In this document: positions 34,156 through 38,968 of the stretch, piece by piece
How the letters are laid out: every line of letters begins with the position of its first letter
Position numbering within the stretch: position 1 is the first letter of the stretch
Source of the DNA: Myxococcaceae bacterium JPH2
GTDB taxonomy: Bacteria; Myxococcota; Myxococcia; Myxococcales; Myxococcaceae
Direction of reading: 5' to 3'
DNA length: 64,000 nucleotides
Assembly (NCBI GenBank): GCA_016458225.1
Contig: JAEMGR010000009.1
Location: 248,001 to 312,000 of the forward strand
Made by a program: the position numbers and the translations under genes
Notes under the pieces: generated by a model
Database searches by the model: none
Seen by the model: the letters and a program-made list of their open reading frames with translations, nothing else
What the model was told of the DNA's origin: nothing

Positions 34156-34653
34156 TCACTGTGAGCCCACCGGGAACATCCACTGCACCCCGGTGAAGGC
34201 CTCGACGTCGCCCCGCAGGCCGGATCCGAACCCGAACGTGAAGCCGAGTCCGCCGAACAGCGCGAGCTGATCCGAGATCAGGTGCCGCACGCCCAACCCT
34301 ATGCGAGGGCCCACCCACGGCCCAGAAAACGGCCGCACGGTCACCCCGAGATCCACGAAGGTCTGCCAGGACTCCTCGCCGAAGACGCTCCGGTAGCCGC
34401 CCACCAGCGACACCTCCTCGCCTGGGGCGCCCGTGCTGCCGCGCGCCAGGAGGAAGACCTCGTCATGGGCGTACCCCACCGAGACGCTCGCCCCGAGATC
34501 CAACTGCGCGGCCAGCCCGGACACCGCCGTGTTCCCGCTGATCCGCTCCGTGTAGGTGGCCCCAGGCCCCGCGAACAGCGACAGCGTGCGGTGGTGTTCG
34601 TAGGGCTGGATGAACTCGGCGCCGAGGATCAGCGGGACGAGTCCGGCGAACAT
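34156..34653 (-). CDS. Outer-membrane beta-barrel-like protein
   Basis: The protein has 165 residues. A short hydrophobic N-terminus (MFAGLVPLILGAEF) may be a minimal signal peptide. The rest alternates strands and turns with Gly/Phe-rich barrel-like strands (LALFGGLGFTFGFGSG near the end, then TGVQWMFPVG). The ATG overlaps the larE stop as TGATG, so translation is coupled to larE, an odd pairing for a sulfur-transfer enzyme. No function can be assigned. Confidence 0.65.
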   Translation of the reverse strand: MFAGLVPLILGAEFIQPYEHHRTLSLFAGPGATYTERISGNTAVSGLAAQLDLGASVSVGYAHDEVFLLARGSTGAPGEEVSLVGGYRSVFGEESWQTFVDLGVTVRPFSGPWVGPRIGLGVRHLISDQLALFGGLGFTFGFGSGLRGDVEAFTGVQWMFPVGSQ

Positions 34654-35549
34654 CAGCCGACCACCGGGAGCGCGAACGCCTCGGTCCGGCCCTGCCCCGC
34701 CGCGGGAGCCACCCCGGCGGCCTCGTTCATCCGGCCTGAGCGGAACGGCTCCAGATCCAGCGCCACGAACTTGAAGCCCAGCGCCTTGAGCGCGGCGTTC
34801 ACCCGGTTCCGCATGTCCGCGGCGAGGAAGCGCTCGTACTCCTCGGCGGCCAGCTCCACGCGGGCCACGTCCTGGTGGTAGCGGACCCGGAACTGGCGGA
34901 AGCCCAGCGCGCGCAGCTCGGACTCCGCCCCGGCGATCTGCAGGAGCCGGTCGCGCGTCACCGACGTGCCGTACGGGATGCGCGAGGCGAGGCACGCCAT
35001 CTGCGGCTTGTCCCAGGTCGGCAGGCCCATCGCGTGGCTCCACGCGCGGATCTCCTCCTTCGTCAGGCCCGCGAGCGCCAGGGGCGACACCACCCGGTGC
35101 TCCTTCGCGGCCTTGTGCCCCGGCCGGTGATCCTTGAAGTCATCCGCGTTGAAGCCGTCCAGCACGACCGCGAGATCCAGCTCGCTCCGCTTCGCCTCGC
35201 AGAGGTCGTACAGCTCCGTCTTGCAGAAGTAGCACCGGTTCGTGGGGTTGGCCGCGTAGCTGGGGTTCGCCAACTCGTTGCTCGACACCACCACGTGGCG
35301 GGCGCCCAGGCGAGCCGCCAGATCCCTCGCCTCCTTCTCCTCCTCTGGCGCCACCGAGGCGGACAGCGCCGTCAGCGCCAGGGCCCGGTCTCCGAGCACC
35401 TCCACCGCCACCTTGAGGACGAAGGTCGAGTCGACTCCGCCCGAGAACGCCACCAGCGCGCTGCCCTGGGCGCGGAGCGCTTCGCGCATCGCCTCCAGCT
35501 TGGGACGGGACGACTCACACAGGGCTTGGATCCGCTCGGGGCTCAGCAT
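34653..35549 (-). CDS. larE: LarE-type ATP-dependent sulfur transferase
   Basis: LarE adenylates and then inserts sulfur into pyridinium biscarboxylic acid for the nickel-pincer cofactor of lactate racemase and relatives. The protein has 298 residues. The PP-loop is SGGVDS (36-41). Three cysteines are placed as in the iron-sulfur type of LarE: C106 and C109 (NRCYFCK) and C186 (MACLASRIPYG). In the sacrificial type, only a single active Cys is kept. AGGAGT lies 7 bases before ATG. No larA, larB or larC homologue is in the window, so this could be a LarE-like enzyme with another acceptor. Confidence 0.88.
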   Translation of the reverse strand: MLSPERIQALCESSRPKLEAMREALRAQGSALVAFSGGVDSTFVLKVAVEVLGDRALALTALSASVAPEEEKEARDLAARLGARHVVVSSNELANPSYAANPTNRCYFCKTELYDLCEAKRSELDLAVVLDGFNADDFKDHRPGHKAAKEHRVVSPLALAGLTKEEIRAWSHAMGLPTWDKPQMACLASRIPYGTSVTRDRLLQIAGAESELRALGFRQFRVRYHQDVARVELAAEEYERFLAADMRNRVNAALKALGFKFVALDLEPFRSGRMNEAAGVAPAAGQGRTEAFALPVVG

Positions 35550-35643
35550 GGGGGGACTCCTAAAACGGAAGGGCCCCGGATTGCACGCGCATCGCGCATG
35601 CAACCTGGAGCCCTTGGACAGCGCAGGTGAACGACAGGCGACG

Positions 35644-36399
35644 CTAGCGCGCCTTGCGCTTCGCCGCTGCCTTCTTCGGGGCTGGGGCCGGCTTGGCCAC
35701 ACGCGCGGCGCGGGTCGCGGGACGGGCCTTCGCGCCCTTGTCCGCCTTCGGGGCCTTGGCCGCCGGCTTGGCCGCGATGATGGGCGCCGGCTCATCCCCG
35801 CGGCGAGCCTTCTTGGGCAGCGGGTTGGCCTTCATCTTCTTGCCCGTGATCGTCTTCAGTTCGTCCGTGCTCATGTAGCCGAGGTCGAGAAGCGCCTGGA
35901 AGATCTTGGCGGCGCCGTCCTCCACCGACTCGGTGTCCGAGTGGATGGTGACCTCGGGCGAGTTGGGCGGCTCGTACGGCTCGGTGATGCCGATGAAGTT
36001 GGGGATCTCCCCCGCCAGGGCCTTCTTGTAGCGGCCAGTGCTGTCCCGCTCGATGAGCTTCTCGGTGGGGCAGTCGACGTAGACCTCGACGTACCGGCCG
36101 ATCGCCCGGCGGTTCTCCTCGCGGCCCACCTTGTACGGGCTGACGCAGGGCACCAGCGCCGCGACCCCGTTGCGGGTCAGCAGATTCGCCACGAAGCCCA
36201 GGCGCTTCACCACCACGGAACGCTCTTCCTTGGTGTCACCGAGCCCCGCCCAGAGCGACTCGGAGAGTTCTCCCTCGTCGAGGATCTCCACGTTGCGACC
36301 GACCTGGCGCAACCGAGCCGCGATGTACGCCGCGGTGGTGCTCTTCCCGGTTCCGGACATGCCGGTCAACCAAAGCGTGAAACCAGTGTTGGGGGCCAT
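35644..36399 (-). CDS. cysC: Adenylylsulfate kinase-like protein with H1-like tail
   Basis: APS kinase makes PAPS from adenylylsulfate and ATP. The 251-residue protein has P-loop GMSGTGKS (13-20), CVSPYKVGREENR, VYVDCPTEKLIERD and GRYKKALAGEIPNFIGI, all CysC motifs. The normal DGDNxR substrate motif reads DEGELSES (41-48), which may change specificity. Residues about 187-251 form a Lys/Ala/Pro-rich H1-like tail absent from ordinary CysC (about 200 residues). GGGAG lies about 11 bases before ATG. It is downstream of the JAMM gene on the same strand, so it may belong to the sulfur cluster or be separately transcribed. Confidence 0.85.
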   Translation of the reverse strand: MAPNTGFTLWLTGMSGTGKSTTAAYIAARLRQVGRNVEILDEGELSESLWAGLGDTKEERSVVVKRLGFVANLLTRNGVAALVPCVSPYKVGREENRRAIGRYVEVYVDCPTEKLIERDSTGRYKKALAGEIPNFIGITEPYEPPNSPEVTIHSDTESVEDGAAKIFQALLDLGYMSTDELKTITGKKMKANPLPKKARRGDEPAPIIAAKPAAKAPKADKGAKARPATRAARVAKPAPAPKKAAAKRKAR

Positions 36400-36556: not shown

Positions 36557-37027
36557 TTACACGGGTTTTTCAATCCTGAAATCGGCCAGGGACAGCGAAA
36601 CACGCAGGAAATCCTCGGATTCCCAAGCAAAAAGCGACAGGTGCGTGACACAGCCGCCATGTATGGCCACGACAAGGTGGGACACGCCCGGAAGCAAAGG
36701 GGTTCCTGAAGGAGCGGCGCGTTCCCGGTCCTCGACGGAGAAATGCGCGGGGGCATTCACGTGGGAATGGAAGACGCACGCGACGCGCTCCGCACACGCG
36801 TCCGCCCCTCGGCAGACCTGGAGCCACTCGCTCAAGTCGAACTCGAAGTGGGTGCGGGGCGTGGGCGACGCGTTGCGAAGCGGCCGCACCCGCCACGTCT
36901 CCGGAGCCTCGCCCTGGAGGATCACGCCGCACCCCTCCGCGGGCCATGCGGACTGCAGGTGACGGACGACCTCCGCGATCACCGCGCGTGGAGGGACTCG
37001 AGTGTCCGGCGCCAGGGCTGGGGCCAT
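36557..37027 (-). CDS. JAMM/MPN+ metallopeptidase (Mec/desampylase-like)
   Basis: The protein has 156 residues. The zinc signature is complete: Glu31 (EGCG), His87-Ser-His89, seven residues, Ser97, two residues, Asp100. JAMM enzymes of this type cleave at the C-terminus of ubiquitin-like or sulfur-carrier proteins; Mec of Mycobacterium cuts cysteine from CysO. The gene is the last of five in a tight operon that includes a MoaD-like carrier ending in GG, its natural substrate. ATG 37027 is chosen because GGAGG lies 7 bases upstream; a GTG two codons earlier would abut the ribosome site. Confidence 0.88.
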   Translation of the reverse strand: MAPALAPDTRVPPRAVIAEVVRHLQSAWPAEGCGVILQGEAPETWRVRPLRNASPTPRTHFEFDLSEWLQVCRGADACAERVACVFHSHVNAPAHFSVEDRERAAPSGTPLLPGVSHLVVAIHGGCVTHLSLFAWESEDFLRVSLSLADFRIEKPV

Positions 37028-37045
37028 CCGCACGCCTCCGGGGTG

Positions 37046-37684
37046 CTAGGGACTCTGGGTCTCCCGACTGGCGCATCGCGCGCAGCGCCTTGGTTCCAGC
37101 TCCGACACTTCTCCGGGCGCCGCGAGCCAGCGCCCCCCGAGCGGCTCACTCATCCCGAGCCGCAGCCGCTGGAACACCAGCGCGCCTAGTGCGCCCAGGG
37201 CCACGCCCAAGGCACCGTCGGGGGGCGGCGTGAGGTGACGGACGGTCTCGCCGAAGCACCACACGCAGCCCTCGGGCCCTCGGAACACCACGGCGGCTCG
37301 CGCGCCGTCGCCGCCCAGCGCGACCCATGGGGCAGCGCCGCTCCAGGCCGCCGGCAGCTCCGCGATCAGCCCACCGCCCGCGCCGTCTCCCACCGCGTCC
37401 GGATTCACTTCGGGCAGCGCTCGGGCCAAGACCTCCGTGGCGGGCCGCCCCACATCCTCCGCCGACGCCAGGAAGCCAGGAGCCCACGGCCCCAGGGGCA
37501 GCGAGCCCACGCCCGCGACCGGAGTGCCGCCGCCCGCCAGGTACGCCGCCGCCGTGAGCCCCGAGGCCCCCACGCCATCCAGGCGAGCGCGCTCGGCCAG
37601 CAAGGCTTCCTGGCCGCGCCCGCCGACCTCGCGCAGGAGAATCTGCCGCGAGTAGCGCAGGATCTGATCCTCTCGCAACGTCAT
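37046..37684 (-). CDS. ThiF/MoeB-like protein with eroded ATP site
   Basis: The protein has 212 residues. It begins with the standard MoeB/ThiF opening (RYSRQILLREVGGRGQ, about 10-25). However, the nucleotide loop GxGGLG is replaced by DGVGASGL, the following acidic and NLQRQ motifs are missing, and the chain is about 40 residues shorter than usual. Both zinc CxxC pairs are kept (CVWC and CARC near the C-terminus). It looks like an inactive E1 that may pair with the active E1 at the start of the operon, as heterodimeric E1s do, but that is inference. GTGAGGG precedes the ATG; 7 bases separate it from the carrier gene. Confidence 0.78.
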   Translation of the reverse strand: MTLREDQILRYSRQILLREVGGRGQEALLAERARLDGVGASGLTAAAYLAGGGTPVAGVGSLPLGPWAPGFLASAEDVGRPATEVLARALPEVNPDAVGDGAGGGLIAELPAAWSGAAPWVALGGDGARAAVVFRGPEGCVWCFGETVRHLTPPPDGALGVALGALGALVFQRLRLGMSEPLGGRWLAAPGEVSELEPRRCARCASRETQSP

Positions 37685-37691
37685 GACGCCC

Positions 37692-37964
37692 TCACCCGCC
37701 TGCCATCGCCGGCACGAGCGTGAGCCGGTCCGAGTCCGCCACGGGCGTGTCCAGCGACTGCATGAACCGGATGTCCTCCTCGTTGAGGAAGACGTTCACA
37801 TAGCGCCGCATCGCGCCGCGCTCGTCGAGCACCCGCGCCCCGAGCCCGGGATAGCGCGCGTCCAGTTCGCGCAGCACCTCGCGCACCGTGGCCCCGGGGG
37901 CGAGCACCTCGGCCTGGTTGCGCGTCAGCGCGCGCATGGGCGTGGGAATCCGAACGGTCGCCAT
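37692..37964 (-). CDS. MoaD/ThiS-family sulfur carrier protein ending in GG
   Basis: A beta-grasp protein of 90 residues. It has the central helix and VREVLRELDARYPGL pattern, then YVNVFLNEEDIRF (the MoaD VxVNxxxV-type strand), DTPVADSDRLTLVPAMAGG. It ends exactly in Gly-Gly, the residue pair that is adenylated and thiocarboxylated by an E1. No extra residues need removal, so the JAMM enzyme next door is more likely to cleave a loaded carrier than to mature it. GGAAGGTGAG precedes ATG; 3 bases after the TusA-like gene. It could be molybdopterin MoaD, but no other moa genes are near. Confidence 0.9.
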   Translation of the reverse strand: MATVRIPTPMRALTRNQAEVLAPGATVREVLRELDARYPGLGARVLDERGAMRRYVNVFLNEEDIRFMQSLDTPVADSDRLTLVPAMAGG

Positions 37965-37967
37965 GAC

Positions 37968-38207
37968 TCACCTTCCCTGCTTGCGCAGCACCAGCACGTG
38001 CGTCCCGTCCCCGCGAGGCGTCAGGGACACCACCTCGTGCCCCTCGTCCCGCGCGTTGCGAGGCACGTTCTTCAGGGGCTCGTCGCCCCGGAGCAGGACC
38101 TCCAGCAGCGCGCCGGCTCCGAGCGATTCCAGCTTCAGCTTGGTGCGCACGTAGGTCATCGGGCACACCTCGCGCGTGATGTCCAACGTCGCCATCACCG
38201 GGGACAT
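37968..38207 (-). CDS. TusA-like sulfurtransferase
   Basis: The protein has 79 residues. TusA proteins carry persulfide sulfur on the Cys of a CPxP motif. Here it is EVCPMTYVRTKLKLESL, with the second Pro replaced by Thr, a substitution seen in a subgroup of the family. The rest (VLLRGDEPLKNVPRNARDEGHEVV) fits. The start at 38207 has GAGGAGG 4 bases upstream and overlaps the E1 gene by 13 bases; an internal ATG at 38195 overlaps the E1 stop as TGATG but is too far from the ribosome site. It likely supplies sulfur to the carrier. Confidence 0.85.
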   Translation of the reverse strand: MSPVMATLDITREVCPMTYVRTKLKLESLGAGALLEVLLRGDEPLKNVPRNARDEGHEVVSLTPRGDGTHVLVLRKQGR

Positions 38208-38968
38208 GCCGCCTCCTCGCGCTCGTCCGGCGAAGGAGGCACGGACGTGACCTGGCACCCGGGACACTCCGGCGCCCGCTCCACCCGGACCGTGCGGCCC
38301 AGCAGGCGCACGCCATCCAGGACATGCAGCGTCGCCTCCCCGCGCGGCGTCCTCCCCACCCCGGCCAGCAACTCCAGGGCGAGCAGGGCCTGCGCGGCGC
38401 CGACCAGTCCCGCCAGCGAACCCAGCACGCCAGCCTGCGCGCAGGTGGGCACCGCGTCTGGCGGAGGGGGCGCCTCGTAGAGGCACCGCAGGCACGGGCC
38501 GCCTGGATCCACGCGCATCGCCTGGCCCTGCATGCGCAGCACGCCGCCGTAGACGAGGGGCACGCCCGTCAGCACCGCCACGTCCGAGAGAAAGAACTTG
38601 GTCGCCACCCCATCCGTGCCGTCGATGACGAGGTCGTGCGCGCGGAAGAGGGCCTCGGCGCTGTTCGCGTCCACGCGCTCGACGAGGGCCTCGGTGCTCA
38701 GGCTCGGGAAGGCCCGCTGGAGTCCCGCCGCGGCGGACTCGGCCTTGGGCCGCCCCACGTCCGAGGCGCGGTGCCAGAGCTGGCGATGCAGGTTCGTCAC
38801 GTCGACCCGGTCCGGATCCACCAGCGTCAGATGCCCGACACCCGCCTGGGCCAATGCCAGCGAGGCGGGGCACCCCAGACCTCCCGCGCCGATCAGCAGG
38901 ACCCGCGCGCGCTCAATGCGACTGGCTTGGGGGATGCGGGGGTGGTGATCGGTATCGTGGCCGTGCAT
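38195..38968 (-). CDS. ThiF/MoeB E1-like adenylyltransferase
   Basis: The 257-residue protein activates the C-terminal Gly of a beta-grasp carrier with ATP. Motifs: GAGGLG (27-32), LVDPD (49-53), NLHRQ (59-63), K75, DGTD (116-119), C176 in PTCAQAGVLG, and zinc CxxC pairs C159/C162 and C235/C238. There is no rhodanese domain, so sulfur must come from elsewhere, plausibly the TusA-like protein. It is the first gene of the operon E1-TusA-MoaD-pseudoE1-JAMM. The start ATG has GGAG 11 bases upstream. Confidence 0.92.
   Translation of the reverse strand: MHGHDTDHHPRIPQASRIERARVLLIGAGGLGCPASLALAQAGVGHLTLVDPDRVDVTNLHRQLWHRASDVGRPKAESAAAGLQRAFPSLSTEALVERVDANSAEALFRAHDLVIDGTDGVATKFFLSDVAVLTGVPLVYGGVLRMQGQAMRVDPGGPCLRCLYEAPPPPDAVPTCAQAGVLGSLAGLVGAAQALLALELLAGVGRTPRGEATLHVLDGVRLLGRTVRVERAPECPGCQVTSVPPSPDEREEAACPR

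Follow-up and report, generated by a model that had tools for sequence, protein, structure and literature searches.

The analysed window, a stretch of 64,000 nucleotides from contig JAEMGR010000009.1 of Myxococcaceae bacterium JPH2 (positions 248,001 to 312,000; assembly GCA_016458225.1, completeness 99.57%), contains a five-gene operon on the minus strand that encodes two E1-like proteins, designated E1a and E1b, a TusA-like protein, a sulfur carrier, and a JAMM metallopeptidase. The explanation we favor, with a modest degree of confidence, is that E1a and E1b constitute a bacterial heterodimeric sulfur-carrier E1, which is fed by TusA and serves cysteine synthesis. The analysis shows the complementary loss of parts in the two proteins, their joint presence and absence, their joint decay, the retention of one segment in E1b, the fold of E1b, and CysM genes in the operons of five relatives; the physical E1a–E1b dimer, the role of TusA as donor, and cysteine as the product in the window genome are inferred. 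In the proposed mechanism, E1a would bind ATP and the Gly-Gly tail of the carrier and produce the acyl-adenylate. E1b, which has no working site, would complete an asymmetric E1 by lending its arm, including Arg13, to the site of E1a, as the second subunit does in MoeB and Uba4 and the inactive half in the SUMO and NEDD8 E1s. The persulfide of TusA would then convert the carrier adenylate to a thiocarboxylate, the carrier would pass its sulfur to a cysteine synthase to yield carrier-Cys, and the JAMM peptidase would free the cysteine.

The two E1-like proteins differ in the parts they keep. E1a (38195–38968, minus strand), predicted to be the catalytic subunit, is a ThiF/MoeB-family protein of 257 amino acids without the N-terminal arm; R73, K86, D130, Cys187, and four zinc cysteines are kept (residue numbers R14, R73, K86, D130, and Cys187 follow MoeB). 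E1b (37046–37684, minus strand) is a paralogue of 212 amino acids and appears to be catalytically dead: R73, K86, and D130 are gone, and the Cys pairs and the arm RYSRQI, in which Arg13 corresponds to MoeB Arg14, are retained. Residues 10–26, which form the core of this conserved segment, are encoded at 37607–37657. In comparisons with solved structures, the match of E1a to MoeB began at residue 29, with the arm absent, and E1b matched residues 4 to 100 of MoeB and ThiF likewise. The initial annotation had recorded the second protein as E1-like; it missed that this protein is, judging from its sequence, a dead partner bearing precisely the part that is missing from E1a.

The same division was observed in the relatives, for which L numbers denote individual loci, G numbers genomes, and g numbers genera of the comparison set. 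The alignment comprised 66 E1a and 67 E1b rows together with a MoeB stretch copied from printed structure alignments; contig ends cut the E1a of L015 and the E1b of L065 and L098, and the single full-length E1s of L064, L071, and L072 were omitted. Among the E1a rows, R73 was present in 64, K86 in 65, and D130 in 64, and the Rossmann GxGGxG motif and the zinc cysteines, like these residues, were each found in 64–66 of 66, including the window. None of the 67 E1b rows had R73, K86, or D130, the D130 column consisting entirely of gaps, and the equivalent of Arg14 was present in 65 of them. An RYxRQ-like arm motif was found in frame upstream of E1a in none of the 66 rows, which rules out a longer E1a with a hidden arm. 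The motif was present in all three single full-length E1s, two of which (L064 and L071) come from outside the family.

The arm is the best-conserved part of E1b. In 25 divergent E1b sequences, picked for divergence and all arm-bearing by choice (the unselected figure being the 65 of 67 given above), the mean top-residue frequency was 0.80 for arm residues 10–29 vs 0.44 for residues 30–212, and the 20-residue stretch starting at residue 10 tied for the highest of 192. The nonsynonymous substitution rate (dN) was below the synonymous rate (dS) for all five genes when they were compared with the homologues of Citreicoccus, whose species C. inhibens was the best match among those listed in named genomes (E1b 96% identical). 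For E1b, dN was 0.018 and dS 0.35; the resulting ratio of approximately 0.05 and the conserved arm rule out a pseudogene in the window and its kin, and the ratio was also low in four Corallococcus pairs.

ThiF was the sole Pfam match of E1a above the cut-off (1.9e-64) and the only family found in E1b (2.6e-7), where the match was strongest over the first 43 profile positions. Pfam revealed no catalytic-cysteine half-domains and no ubiquitin-fold domain in either protein. The structural model of E1b, built from 17 sequences (predicted local distance difference test, pLDDT, 88.7; predicted template modeling score, pTM, 0.87), indicates that it has the ThiF fold. Its matches were MoeB (Z 18.8; 2.8 Å over 199 residues), ThiF (18.4), SAE1 (18.1; 2.8 Å over 195 residues), and APPBP1 (17.3), with rows within one Z unit treated as tied. 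In the SUMO and NEDD8 E1 entries the best-matching chain was the inactive subunit, as judged by chain length.

Co-occurrence was counted over 96 genomes of the myxobacterial family, 83 of which had both E1a and E1b and 12 neither; in the remaining one, G072, E1a and TusA lie at a contig end. In 82 genomes E1a was detected with an identity of at least 52%, and the divergent arm-less E1a of G143 and G144 brought the number to 84. E1b was found by search in 80 of those 82 and by locus reading in G146, with G143 and G144 again added. The pair was also carried by the two order-level relatives from outside the family that were included, G161 and G162 (L057 and L063). Among the 12 genomes without the pair, G141 and G142 are only 82% and 87% complete. 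Eight of the 12 (L083–L090) have jointly lost E1a, TusA, and E1b from the locus, where MoaD-JAMM-CysC-LarE remain; the absence of TusA refers to the locus only, since the rest of these genomes was not searched for it. A full-length E1 was found in all eight, in a frame of 390–479 amino acids in seven and of 420 amino acids in the eighth (G091), and that of G063 was read as a rhodanese-E1. In these genomes the full-length E1 could take over the charging of the carrier. An extra full-length E1 was also seen in six genomes of g3 and g6 without the split E1 (L191 and L193–L197), and in L191 and L193 it was seen to have an arm of its own; this check covered those six genomes of the two genera.

The two halves decay together as well. 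The residues N70, R73, D130, and Cys187 were changed in only two of the 66 E1a rows, L070 and L095, the latter being additionally devoid of K86. At the same two loci E1b begins after the arm and looks decayed, and TusA is absent. Thus, the only two arm-less E1b of 67 adjoin the only two broken-site E1a of 66, and both halves are decayed in two of the 83 pair-bearing genomes. At L091, E1b is reduced to an open reading frame of 88 residues whose start coincides with the stop of MoaD and which keeps ARYARQIL, CxxC, and a C-terminal CxxH; the operon reads CysK-E1a-TusA-MoaD-x-CysM-JAMM-CysC-LarE, where x is this short E1b. The pair persists without TusA and MoaD (L177) and without JAMM (L053 and L056), and is the steadiest part of the operon; the carrier is not pinned down in every genome.

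The evidence for the product comes from relatives. According to the initial annotation, no acceptor enzyme stands beside the operon, which is correct for the window and does not hold for five of the 96 family genomes (L047, L049, L052, L058, and L091), in which a CysM gene is located between E1b and JAMM. The same five genomes have a second cysteine-synthase paralogue upstream of E1a (L047:8864–9757, L049:5193–6017, L052:9431–10321, L058:9380–10199, and L091:8694–9557). The lysine that CysM keeps, which we take to be the pyridoxal phosphate (PLP) lysine, is replaced in this paralogue in all five, by F, M, A, Y (L058, read by eye), and F, respectively. CysM and the lysine-less paralogue may represent a second active/dead pair in the same operon. 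Given the cysteine-synthase genes of these five relatives, cysteine is the most likely product of the pathway, formed according to the logic of CysO-Mec-CysM. In the window genome, a cysteine synthase encoded elsewhere would have to act, the CysM of these operons having no close copy there.

A number of points weigh against this explanation. The arginine finger, which is contributed by the other subunit and has been named for ThiF, MoeB, and Tcd1, is not essential in MoeB and ThiF, and E. coli TcdA does without it, according to the account of the finger in PMC13139853; therefore, the loss of the arm alone is no proof that E1a needs a partner. The joint loss of E1a, TusA, and E1b could be a block deletion of adjacent genes, and L070 and L095, which belong to two species of one genus, perhaps reflect one event. 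The majority of the loci were retrieved by matches covering the arm, which may bias the arm counts (L091, L177, and L210 were retrieved via E1a, ThiF, or MoaD searches instead); the choice of the 25 divergent E1b adds to this. In addition, the structural model of E1a is weak (pLDDT 70). On the side of the product, a match of at least 60% to the operon CysM was listed, among all 96, in only the five genomes named above, and only these five have the gene in the operon. The best match in the window genome was 39%, which gives no support to a dedicated acceptor elsewhere in that genome. A CysE-CysK pair is encoded there, as are further proteins of the PLP fold, none of them evidentially tied to the carrier.

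The variation of the operon also fits poorly. No MoaD gene turned up in the operons of L045, L048, L050, L054, L057, L059–L063, L068, L069, L175, L177, and L210; at L068, the 427 bases that separate TusA from E1b were read in three frames without revealing a carrier that ends in GG. A third full-length carrier was missing from each of the seven genomes of genus g26, whose full-length matches were confined to one of ThiS size and another of MoaD type; the JAMM motif was nonetheless present in all of them (L054, L059, L060, L062, L068, L069, and L176). TusA was absent from L058, L177, and L210, where the E1 pair is present. No JAMM gene could be located in the operons of L050, L051, L053, L056, L057, L066, and L067, and these seven loci lowered our confidence in the best explanation. 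Five of the seven belong to genus g4, and four of these five still show a carrier, 31–38% identical. At L053, L056, L066, and other loci of this genus, the operon has retained both E1 halves, TusA, and a divergent MoaD, and has no gene for JAMM. A separate observation concerns G107, whose split-E1 operon is without MoaD: a MoaD-E1-rhodanese fusion is encoded beside a CysM-like gene at L136:3426–6251.

Among the alternatives, it is unlikely, yet deserves consideration, that the thiocarboxylate feeds homocysteine and methionine or another thio-product (an HcyS-type reaction, tRNA thiolation, or a natural product) and not cysteine. The operons listed in row 4e of PMC1779556 combine the carrier, JAB, E1, and SirA with adenylylsulfate kinase and O-acetylhomoserine sulfhydrylase, and the window has an APS kinase and no CysM. 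Moreover, the adjacent LarE belongs to a sulfur-inserting family, and a close paralogue of the carrier in G096 adjoins a ThiG-family gene. In contrast, the acceptor-type enzyme that occurs inside the operon, in five genomes, is a cysteine synthase; O-acetylhomoserine sulfhydrylase was not searched for by family model. The paralogue in G096 (L092:7193–9091) is a second CysO-type carrier, 61% identical to that of the window.

We regard as improbable that E1a and E1b are two separate E1-like proteins, with E1a acting as an arm-free homodimer, as TcdA does, and E1b surviving as a regulatory or scaffold relic that docks, for example, TusA or JAMM. The dispensability of the arm arginine in MoeB and ThiF and its absence from TcdA would agree with a self-sufficient E1a, and E1b may serve JAMM, with which it shares one reading frame at L048 and L175. 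However, a relic of this kind fits poorly with the arm being the best-conserved part of E1b and surviving its shrinkage to 88 residues, and a self-sufficient E1a with the decay of its site exactly where the arm is lost. The persistence of the pair without TusA and MoaD, and without JAMM, likewise argues against separate functions. The shared frame itself was observed in two genera (L048:6178–7239, and L175 with E1b from 3363 on).

It is very improbable that the carrier is a protein modifier of the SAMP/Urm1 kind, attached by E1a and E1b and removed by JAMM, with metabolism secondary: the carrier passes the NCBIfam SAMP1 cut-off (60.4 bits against 60), the JAMM protein matches desampylase best, albeit far below the cut-off (42.1 against 130 bits), and the asymmetric E1s known apart from this case belong to conjugation systems (BilD, SAE, and NAE, in the comparison given in PMC11354881), but the neighboring genes encode TusA, APS kinase, and LarE, joined in five relatives by CysM, and no E2-like gene was noticed at the loci, where no family-model search for E2 was made.

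Returning to the heterodimeric E1 and its operon, the five genes lie on one strand at 36557–38968, as initially annotated, and the Pfam families agree with the names given there. The gene for the TusA-like putative sulfur donor (37968–38207; CPMT motif; Pfam TusA 3.6e-17) overlaps that of E1a by 13 bases. It is separated by 3 bases from the gene for the MoaD/SAMP1-like carrier (37692–37964; ThiS 1.7e-16), which ends exactly in Gly-Gly (AMAGG), and E1b follows after 7 bases. The JAMM/Mec-like metallopeptidase (36557–37033; Prok-JAB 3.3e-16), with an intact HSH-x7-S-x2-D motif, has a GTG start 12 bases beyond E1b; the gap of 18 bases reported earlier holds for the alternative ATG at 37027, and the other spacings were reproduced unchanged. 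The parts needed to adenylate a carrier, give it sulfur, and cleave it are all in place. The gene order recurs with variations throughout the myxobacterial family and all five genes show dN below dS; hence the arrangement is not due to chance. Outside the operon, the window genome encodes a ThiS-ThiG pair, a MoaD-MoaE fusion, and a rhodanese-E1. With two other carriers in the genome, that of the operon is a separate, third one and not the sole MoaD, which would have pointed to molybdopterin synthesis.

Downstream, on the same strand, are genes for an APS kinase (CysC, 35644–36399), which adjoins the operon, and a LarE-type ATP-dependent sacrificial sulfur transferase (34653–35549), both names being confirmed by NCBIfam. 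CysC and LarE are conserved in the E1a loci read that extend far enough (the 3.6-kb loci L007–L035 are too short to reach this region). The two genes, at 34653–36399 in the window, remain even at loci that have lost the E1 module. A genome scan beyond the phylum with patterns from the E1b body, which misses divergent forms and was not accompanied by a family-model search of other phyla, returned at least 26 loci, of which 25 had myxobacterial titles and one was titled Comamonas. The operon of the latter (L104, Comamonas sp. KCTC 72670) was 77–86% identical to that of the window (JAMM 52%) among the matches listed, and probably comes from a mislabeled myxobacterial genome.

Operons that combine ThiS/MoaD, JAB, a rhodanese-less E1, SirA, and sulfur genes were predicted by Iyer and colleagues in 2006 (row 4e in PMC1779556), along with others that contain cysteine synthase (row 4c). 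It is the row 4e kind to which the operon of the window belongs, with all components of that kind present. Both have SirA/TusA, thought to replace rhodanese, and an adenylylsulfate kinase nearby; the description of row 4e has one E1-like protein, whereas the present operon encodes two E1 halves that complement each other. The earlier suggestion that TusA as donor together with a second E1-like protein forms a distinct arrangement therefore does not stand for the TusA part, already predicted in that work, and stands for the second E1, which is the unusual part. The mycobacterial CysO-Mec-CysM system (rows 4c/4d in PMC1779556), whose E1 is named as MoeZR in PMC3227635, shares the GG-ending carrier and JAMM, as well as CysM in the operon of five relatives. 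It differs from the system described here, which has TusA in place of a rhodanese-E1, a split E1, and no operon-type CysM found in the window genome. Our search of the open-licence literature found no report of a two-gene bacterial sulfur-carrier E1, although a prior mention is possible. The logic of TusA, E1, carrier, and JAMM had already been predicted, and the second, complementary E1 looks new.

Asymmetry within an E1 has precedents. In Uba4, the arm arginine is Arg18 of the second subunit, according to the structural account in PMC7527816. Yeast Tcd1-Tcd2, as presented in PMC13139853, is likewise a ThiF-fold heterodimer with an arginine finger from the inactive subunit, but acts on tRNA t6A and not on a carrier protein. 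BilD is an asymmetric bacterial E1 from an operon with a JAB/JAMM protease; as outlined in PMC11354881, it unites an inactive half, an active half, and a Cys domain in a single chain and functions in conjugation, unlike the two genes with sulfur-gene neighbors found here. The general scheme in a 2025 review (PMC12687455) is that prokaryotic MoeB and ThiF are homodimers and eukaryotic E1s are active/inactive pairs; the single-chain BilD departs from it among bacteria. SAE1-UBA2 and APPBP1-UBA3, the SUMO and NEDD8 E1s of animals and yeast, resemble the myxobacterial proteins in having a catalytic and an inactive subunit, and the modeled fold of E1b is near SAE1 and APPBP1. In contrast, the myxobacterial pair is bacterial, has no catalytic-cysteine or ubiquitin-fold domain, and would act on a sulfur carrier; the two kinds of E1 presumably arose separately. 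We give an even chance to the broader view that a two-gene heterodimeric E1 evolved in myxobacteria independently of eukaryotes, with one subunit performing the chemistry and the other reduced, to 88 residues in one lineage, to a donor of the arginine arm, and that CysM and its PLP-lysine-less paralogue repeat this in five genomes, so that both dimeric enzymes would be half-dead pairs. The loci offer a natural gradation of dead subunits, ranging from full length down to 88 residues, in which the role of the inactive E1 half could be studied, and a split sulfur-carrier E1 in bacteria, if true, would mean that an asymmetric E1 can arise without protein conjugation.

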